Origin: Campylobacterota bacterium
GTDB taxonomy: Bacteria > Campylobacterota > Campylobacteria > Campylobacterales > Sulfurimonadaceae
Length of the DNA: 49,858 nt
Assembly (NCBI GenBank): GCA_013607665.1
Contig: VCAX01000003.1
Coordinates: forward strand, 1 to 49,858
Direction: 5' to 3'
In this document: piece after piece, positions 26,394 through 27,911 of the stretch
How positions within the stretch are numbered: position 1 is the stretch's first letter
Layout: the number at the start of each line of letters is the position of its first letter
The notes under the pieces: model-generated
The model's input: the letters and a program-made list of their open reading frames with translations, nothing else
What the model was told of the DNA's origin: nothing
The model's database searches: none
Position numbers and translations under genes: made by a program

Positions 26394-27164
26394 ATGACCA
26401 TTTTTGATTCTGTTATTTTAGGAAGTATCGAAGGTTTTACCGAGTTTCTGCCTATCTCTTCGACCGGACACCTCATTGTTGTTTCAAAATTTCTCGGAAT
26501 CGATCAGACAGCAGTTACAAAAGCCTACGAGGTCATCATTCAATTTGCTGCTATTTTGGCTGTTGTACTTAACTACAAAGAGAAATTTTCCCTGCAAAAA
26601 ATAGAACTCTGGAAAAAACTCATTTTAGCATTTATTCCTATTGGAGCAGTTGGATTTGTTTTCTCCCATCAGATAAAAGCACTCTTTAGTGTCGAGATAG
26701 TAGCTATTATGTTCATCGTCGGCGGCATCATCTTTTTGCTTGTTGAGAAATTCTATATCCCAAAAGAGAGAACACAGATTGAGAGTGTAGAGCTTGTTAC
26801 TTATAAACAGGCACTCTGGATAGGAATTGCTCAGATCTTTGCACTCATTCCCGGAACAAGTCGTGCGGGTTCGAGCATCATCGGTGCACTGCTTGTCGGC
26901 CTCTCACGCAAGGCAAGTGCCGAGTTTAGCTTTTTACTCGCTGTGCCTGTCATGTGTGCCGTAACAGGCTATGATCTGCTCAAACATTACCATGAATTTT
27001 CAGATACCAACCTCATCACACTCGCTGTTGGCTTCGTTGTCGCTTTTGTCGTTGCCTTTATCACCATCAAGCTCTTTTTAAAATTCTTAGAAAAATTCAC
27101 TTTCGTTGCTTTTGGTATCTATCGAATTCTCTTTGGCATGCTTCTTTTAACATTATTTAACTAA
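26394..27164 (+). CDS. uppP: Undecaprenyl-diphosphatase
   Basis: 256 aa, about eight helices. Motif 1 [20 protein letters not shown] (about 11-30) and motif 2 [22 protein letters not shown] (about 147-170) are diagnostic of the BacA/UppP family. Recycles the lipid carrier for peptidoglycan and surface polysaccharide. AAGGGA precedes the ATG. Divergent from the aminotransferase operon. Confidence 0.97.
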
Positions 27165-27180
27165 AATAATTTTTAACATT

Positions 27181-27196
27181 TGGAACACAATGTGCT
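27181..27196 (+). promoter_or_regulatory. Sigma54-type promoter
   Basis: TGGAACACAATGTGCT has GG and GC exactly 12 positions apart, as RpoN promoters require, and matches the Campylobacter-type form GGAA-N6-TTGCTT with one mismatch. A start site near 27207 would give a leader of about 27 nt to the small ORF. Confidence 0.6.
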
Positions 27197-27233
27197 TTAT
27201 TTTTAGCATCCAATAGATGTTAAAGGAGATATC

Positions 27234-27326
27234 ATGCAGAATTTCAGCAGATATAACGCCCACCTACATTTAGTTTTAGAGAAACTTGAGCGCTCATTTT
27301 ACAAACTGAGTTGCAAGTTTTTATAA
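27234..27326 (+). CDS. Small protein (30 aa) behind a sigma54-type promoter
   Basis: Too short for the ORF track. AAAGGAG lies six bases before the ATG; the product is [20 protein letters not shown] and then [10 protein letters not shown], a probable single amphipathic helix with a Cys near the end. It overlaps the rdgB stop by 6 nt, convergently. No family recognised. In Campylobacterota RpoN mostly drives flagellar genes, so a flagellar link is possible but unproven. Confidence 0.6.
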
Positions 27327-27911
27327 TACTTTTAGTACTTTCGATGCAAGAGCGAGGGCTTTTGATCGGTGTGAAAGCTCTTTTTTTACTCCGTCATCAA
27401 GCTCTCCTAGTGTTTTGTCGAATCCAGCAGGTACGAACATCGGGTCATACCCAAACCCTTTCTCCCCTCTTGCTTCTGTTATAGCCGTTCCATACATCCA
27501 GCCATGCACTGTTCTTTCTTTATCTTTTGTAACAATCGCAATTGCTGCTGTATAGTGCGCAGGTGAGCTGCTTGCTCCTTTTGCCTTTATCTCCGCTATA
27601 AGCTTATAGAGATTCTCTTTGTCACTTGCATTCACACCGCCATAACGTGCAGAGAAGATTCCAGGAGCACCCCCTAAGATATCAACACTGATGCCACTGT
27701 CATCTGCAAGAACAACAGCATCTTCATCACCCAAAGCCTCATAAACCGCGCGTGCTTTGATAAGCGCATTGCCTTTAAATGTATCAGCATCTTCGACAAT
27801 CTCAAACTCTTCAATAAGATCCGTATAAGGGGCAACCTCATACGCTTTGCAGAGTGCTTTAATCTCTTTTACCTTACCTTTGTTCGCAGTTGCCAGTACT
27901 AATTTTTTCAA
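27321..27911 (-). CDS. rdgB: dITP/XTP pyrophosphatase
   Basis: 196 aa. [16 protein letters not shown] at the start, [23 protein letters not shown] (about 67-90), [13 protein letters not shown] and LSHRSKAL are the HAM1/RdgB motifs. Removes non-canonical purine nucleotides. The start at 27911 is TTG with AAGGAAG upstream; no better ATG exists. Confidence 0.96.

Follow-up and report, generated by a model that had tools for sequence, protein, structure and literature searches.

A sigma54-driven 30-codon gene of Sulfurimonadaceae with a predicted read-through lock embedded in its promoter

The stretch of DNA analysed here, referred to as the window, comprises positions 1 to 49,858 of contig VCAX01000003.1 (49,858 nt; assembly GCA_013607665.1, Campylobacterota bacterium, Sulfurimonadaceae) and contains a small gene that, judged from comparative sequence, is almost certainly a real protein-coding gene driven by sigma54. 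The explanation that best accounts for the observations as a whole, held with fair confidence, is that of a mid-stage small-protein gene of the RpoN regulon with a promoter-embedded lock against read-through. In its full form this reading is narrowly favoured: the sigma54 promoter would double as an anti-Shine-Dalgarno (anti-SD) arm, a flagellar-regulon micropeptide of an unnamed family would be translatable only from RNA starting at that promoter and never from read-through RNA, and the leaders of some flgI and flgB genes in the genus may do likewise. The predicted promoter-embedded anti-SD arm, which was missed in the first-pass annotation of this DNA, and the peptide family are new.

Locus layout, coding evidence and distribution

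The small ORF, which had not been listed before, sits between uppP, encoded on the same strand, and the convergent rdgB. The features of the locus are as follows:

26394..27164, + strand: uppP/bacA, from the ORF list (PF02673, E 4e-72), co-directional and upstream
27181..27196, + strand: sigma54 promoter, -24 TGGAAC and -12 TGCT, from the sequence; exact spacing in 72/75 loci
27201..27210, + strand: predicted anti-SD arm, forming the left arm of the inverted repeat in the leader, most of it 5' of the expected +1 (folding, covariation)
27207, + strand: expected sigma54 +1, placed by sigma54 geometry 12 nt past the C of the -12 GC
27216..27225, + strand: the repeat's right arm, which shares bases with the Shine-Dalgarno (folding)
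27222..27228, + strand: Shine-Dalgarno (SD) AAAGGAG, which in close relatives lies inside the near-invariant leader ATGTTAAAGGAGATATC
27234..27326, + strand: 30-codon small ORF, ATG at 27234 and TAA ending at 27326, with a predicted single amphipathic helix (residues 2-29)
27321..27326, no strand: palindrome TTATAA, read as Leu-stop on both strands, forming the shared 3' ends of the small ORF and rdgB
27321..27911, - strand: rdgB (PF01725), convergent, neighbour in 68/75 loci
27354..27390, + strand: terminator-like stem-loop with a T run, on the antisense strand of the rdgB coding region (consensus scan only)

The uppP stop lies 16 nt 5' of the -24 element, a gap into which a terminator would not fit, and this distance is usually 0-23 nt across the 75 loci that were examined in detail. 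The uppP gene is found upstream in all 75 loci (adjacent by script in 74, and farther off in L034), including the seven in which rdgB is replaced by another gene, and the small gene therefore goes with uppP. Where rdgB is present, the 3' ends of the small ORF and rdgB share 6 nt in 40 of the 68 loci, including the locus described here. The transcript probably ends at the stem-loop at 27354..27390, which would give an RNA of about 180 nt. A similar stem and T run is also seen in genomes without the small gene, so this site may end uppP transcripts. A sigma70-like TTTACA-18-TATAAT (11/12) at 27298-27327 on the + strand spans the end of the small ORF and is directed into rdgB, and is possibly a by-product of conserved codons. 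In one genome without the small gene (G050, locus L099), uppP itself is preceded at a distance of about 50 nt by a perfect sigma54-like site, TGGAATACTATTTGCT, and no sigma54-like site directly before uppP was found in the other loci checked.

The ORF is exactly 30 codons long in 70 of the 75 loci, and in four others the start codons were shifted by hand. The dN/dS ratio is 0.38 for moderately close pairs and 0.26 for closer pairs, whereas 30 column-shuffled alignments gave 0.78 on average and never less than 0.49; since the loci are related by descent, test p-values are optimistic. Divergent copies located by synteny retain both the ORF length and the promoter. The in-frame purifying selection, the fixed length and the ribosome-binding site mark the small ORF, at the level of comparative sequence, as a protein-coding gene. 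The first-pass annotation would have given up the gene if neither ORF nor promoter were conserved in close relatives and no transcript arose at 27207; on conservation the opposite is found, as ORF and promoter are retained jointly throughout the genus and also in sister genera, and the homologue search it proposed with the 30-residue peptide finds the gene at this position in most genomes of the same genus. Its further suggestion that the RNA might act on the convergent rdgB 3' end is not supported, as purifying selection acts on the reading frame and the gene persists without rdgB downstream in 7 of 75 loci, for which reason an rdgB-directed RNA was rejected as the general function.

Of 120 same-genus genomes, 86 carry the peptide according to a profile search. 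With a broader profile, it is detected in 108 of the 228 family genomes, which represent 5 of 18 genera; outside the family, homologue matches in the order do not rise above chance level. On a midpoint-rooted uppP tree with many open forks, carriers are confined to one clade of 45 genomes (34 carriers and 11 without an intact copy), and a second clade of ten genomes holds no carriers, a pattern that fits one gain followed by several losses. The genus holds two very different uppP types, with about 75-90% and about 50% identity to the uppP of the window. Several genomes without the small gene retain rpoN and flhA, and its loss on several occasions in flagellated species indicates that the small gene is not required for flagella. 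A second rpoN-like gene is present in several genomes of the genus.

Promoter class and the flagellar regulon

The promoter consists of TGGAAC (27181-27186), a spacer of 6 nt and TGCT (27193-27196), which places the GG (27182-27183) and the GC (27194-27195) 10 nt apart in the canonical sigma54 geometry. The first-pass annotation had described a sigma54-type promoter with -24/-12 spacing followed by AAAGGAG, an ATG and a 30-codon ORF, and these positions are confirmed. The motif alone proves nothing in the window, since TGGNAY-N6-TGCT occurs once where 1.15 occurrences are expected; the element is raised above chance by the conservation of the peptide, the ORF length and the promoter, with correctly spaced -24 and -12 elements at most 85 nt upstream of the ORF in 72 of the 75 loci. 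The exact TGGAAC-N6-TGCT is found 10 times in the genome versus once for a reversed-pattern control, and the host genome encodes rpoN (G000:C98, E 5.9e-49). When 84,980 species were scanned for the sigma54 motif combined with AAAGGAGATAT(C/T)ATG, 19 matches were obtained, and all 19 are the small gene; the records are all labelled Sulfurimonas apart from one, labelled Helicobacteraceae bacterium. G010 has a decayed copy, damaged both in its -12 element and over the first third of its ORF.

Across six genomes of the genus, 64 sigma54 sites were identified versus 12 in controls. The same motif precedes flgB, flgF, flgH, flgI, flgL and flagellin genes (representatives confirmed with NCBIfam), as well as some non-flagellar or unknown genes. 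This shared motif assigns the promoter to the flagellar RpoN class and bears out the link between RpoN and flagella drawn in the first-pass annotation. The small gene shares its -24/-12 motif with the middle-class flagellar regulon of Campylobacterota RpoN but differs from the members of that regulon in that it is not a known flagellar gene, lies outside flagellar operons and is patchy within the genus. Its membership in the flagellar regulon is likely, while the chance that the peptide itself functions in flagella or motility is about even.

Among flagellated species, the presence of FlgM, rpoN and flhA does not track the small gene, which is absent from several flagellated species and from G012, the only aflagellate complete genome. 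The latter (same genus, 1 contig, 1.9 Mb) is without rpoN, FlhA and FlgM, an apparent loss of the entire flagellar system. Co-loss in G012 was rejected as proof of function, because its flagellated relatives on the uppP tree, G066 and G092, are also without the gene. Replacement of FlgM by the peptide was likewise rejected, FlgM (PF04316) being encoded separately in carriers and non-carriers. At four loci (L008, L154, L166 and L182), a protein starting M(D/E)IVLRNNLILITTGFDTLN and without an NCBIfam match recurs, in several genomes, behind the same sigma54 motif, and may represent a further uncharacterised gene of the RpoN regulon.

The leader inverted repeat and its proposed role

An inverted repeat lies between the -12 element and the ATG. 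When the leaders are folded from the C of the -12 element the mean z-score is -2.26, and when they are folded from the expected +1, twelve bases further on, it is -0.16. In predicted ensembles, the unpaired probability of the SD is 0.19 in RNA that includes 60 nt of upstream sequence versus 0.63 in RNA from +1, and lock-like folding is predicted in 50 of 71 loci; roughly 15-20 of the 71 leaders are without a clear hairpin. For 40 other sigma54 genes of the genus, the corresponding unpaired probabilities are 0.42 and 0.55, and 8 of the 40 are lock-like. The arms of each leader pair more stably with one another than with permuted arms (-8.46 versus -6.87 kcal/mol; reached in 0 of 20,000 permutations, a p-value that is optimistic because the loci are related by descent), and this is also observed for 45 non-redundant leaders (-7.86 versus -6.39 kcal/mol).

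The bases that pair with the SD are concentrated in the promoter region, with 92% of them 0-11 nt past the C of the -12 element and upstream of +1 (71/75 paired loci). Among 20 leaders of 43-67 nt, 19 also have the anti-SD arm just upstream of +1, which argues that its position is fixed relative to the promoter rather than to the SD, and leaders from sister genera differ in sequence and have the same arm arrangement. As the uppP stop is usually within 0-23 nt of the -24 element, read-through from uppP is unavoidable unless the RNA is ended otherwise, and the inverted repeat is probably a lock against translation of this read-through RNA.

A comparable arrangement is known from the genes e, soc and I-TevI of phage T4, in which the SD is sequestered in a longer RNA initiated upstream and a late promoter is located inside the 5' arm of the hairpin (PMC3014915, PMC2988022). 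The predicted folding of the leaders follows the gene e pattern, with the SD paired in the upstream-initiated RNA and free in RNA from the proximal promoter, and in both cases the proximal promoter is placed so that it would yield a translatable transcript without the 5' arm. The candidate lock differs from the T4 examples in being located on a bacterial chromosome, in having a sigma54 promoter and a 30-codon gene, and in having been deduced by sequence comparison. A literature search found no sigma54 example of such a lock and no matching flagellar peptide, although journal coverage was partial and this is weak evidence. The T4 precedent is joined here by covariation evidence on a bacterial chromosome, and a lock of this type would offer a compact, testable way to tie expression to the promoter from which an RNA originates.

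In the proposed mechanism, sigma54-RNA polymerase, presumably activated by FlgS/FlgR like the other RpoN flagellar genes, would initiate at about 27207; the role of FlgR as activator of the small gene is carried over from Campylobacter (PMC11187230). The resulting short mRNA would have a free SD, and the 30-residue helix would be made only with the middle flagellar genes on. Read-through RNA from uppP would carry the extra promoter bases upstream of +1, which would pair with the SD and block translation, so that the promoter would double as the anti-SD arm of the lock and only sigma54-initiated RNA would escape. Comparative sequence covers the conservation of the coding region and the promoter, the promoter class, the covarying pairing and the position of the anti-SD arm, and from these we infer the start site, the activator, the silencing of the read-through RNA and all of the peptide's action.

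The peptide and alternative explanations

AlphaFold predicts a single helix for residues 2-29 of the peptide (pLDDT 92). Positions 4, 7, 11, 14, 15, 18, 22, 25 and 29 are hydrophobic in 99-100% of the 30-residue copies and position 23 in 97%, and the hydrophobic moment is 2.8 sd above that of shuffled sequences. The mean net charge is +2.65, the mean hydrophobicity is -0.05, and the near-invariant residues are E19 (69/70), S26 (68/70) and K28 (66/70). Searches of the peptide against Pfam, NCBIfam, PHROGs and PDB sequences gave nothing significant. The predicted helix, its conserved hydrophobic face and the near-invariant residues make a docked amphipathic helix the likely form of the peptide. 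The hydrophobic face (residues 4, 7, 11, 14, 15, 18, 22, 25 and 29) would dock on a partner protein or on the inner membrane, and the peptide would most likely act as an accessory or regulatory factor in flagellar assembly or motility.

Several other explanations share parts of this evidence. With the same gene and promoter, the inverted repeat could act in the DNA as an operator at the start site, or as a hairpin at the 5' end of the sigma54 mRNA that controls the translation or stability of this mRNA, for example as a CsrA target. The repeat does straddle the expected start, the motif ATGTTAAAGGAG is common to close relatives, and AGGA motifs suit CsrA; however, the arms covary as the leaders diverge, in a second genus as well, whereas a fixed protein site would not behave in this way, and the hairpin is largely gone when folding begins at the expected +1 (the z of -0.16 versus -2.26 given above). 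This explanation is unlikely, though it keeps some weight. The function of the peptide could also lie with UppP, a membrane protein encoded by the adjacent gene, instead of with flagella. The constant upstream position of uppP in all 75 loci, the confinement of the gene to one uppP clade and the sigma54-like site before uppP in G050 all point in this direction, but the adjacency may be plain vertical inheritance and 11 genomes of the same clade are without an intact gene, which leaves a role with UppP rather improbable.

The length of 30 residues, the amphipathic character, the positive charge, the tight expected control and the 3' overlap with rdgB (6 nt, in 40 of 68 loci) would also suit a possibly membrane-active, TisB-like toxin whose translation is locked for that reason and whose antisense control is the convergent rdgB message. 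Such a toxin is distinctly improbable, as the mean hydrophobicity is low, the near-invariant E19, S26 and K28 point to a specific interface, some loci have another neighbour than rdgB and no antitoxin RNA was seen. Finally, the RNA could be the functional product, either as a dual-function RNA, as an antisense on rdgB or as a trans-acting RNA, with the ORF secondary. RpoN-dependent flagellar sRNAs are known in Campylobacter, among them CJnc230 (FlmE) of C. jejuni, a non-coding sRNA processed from the flgE mRNA (PMC11187230), and the small gene has a terminator-like site antisense in rdgB. The two transcripts are alike as short RpoN-dependent members of the flagellar regulon (by prediction in the present case) but differ in that the small gene has its own sigma54 promoter and codes for a conserved peptide. 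The purifying selection on the frame, the fixed length, the lack of an Rfam match for the RNA, the maintenance of the peptide and of the SD pairing as the leader diverges, and the variable downstream neighbour make a primary RNA function highly improbable.

A regulon small protein behind a promoter-embedded lock, the explanation preferred here, would bring into the flagellar regulon of widespread marine sulfur-oxidising bacteria a peptide family that has no known relative. A gene of 30 residues is below the size called by many annotation pipelines. The fixed 30-residue length and the few near-invariant residues make a partner search tractable. SpoVM and TisB are also peptides of about 26-30 residues that form a single amphipathic helix. 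The likeness to them is limited to size and the single helix, the peptide being without a match in the databases searched.

Lock-like leaders among the 40 other sigma54 genes show no clear trend with the presence of an upstream co-directional gene. At L147 and L155, both flgI, and at L143, which is flgB, a leader hairpin is predicted to hide the SD in read-through RNA.
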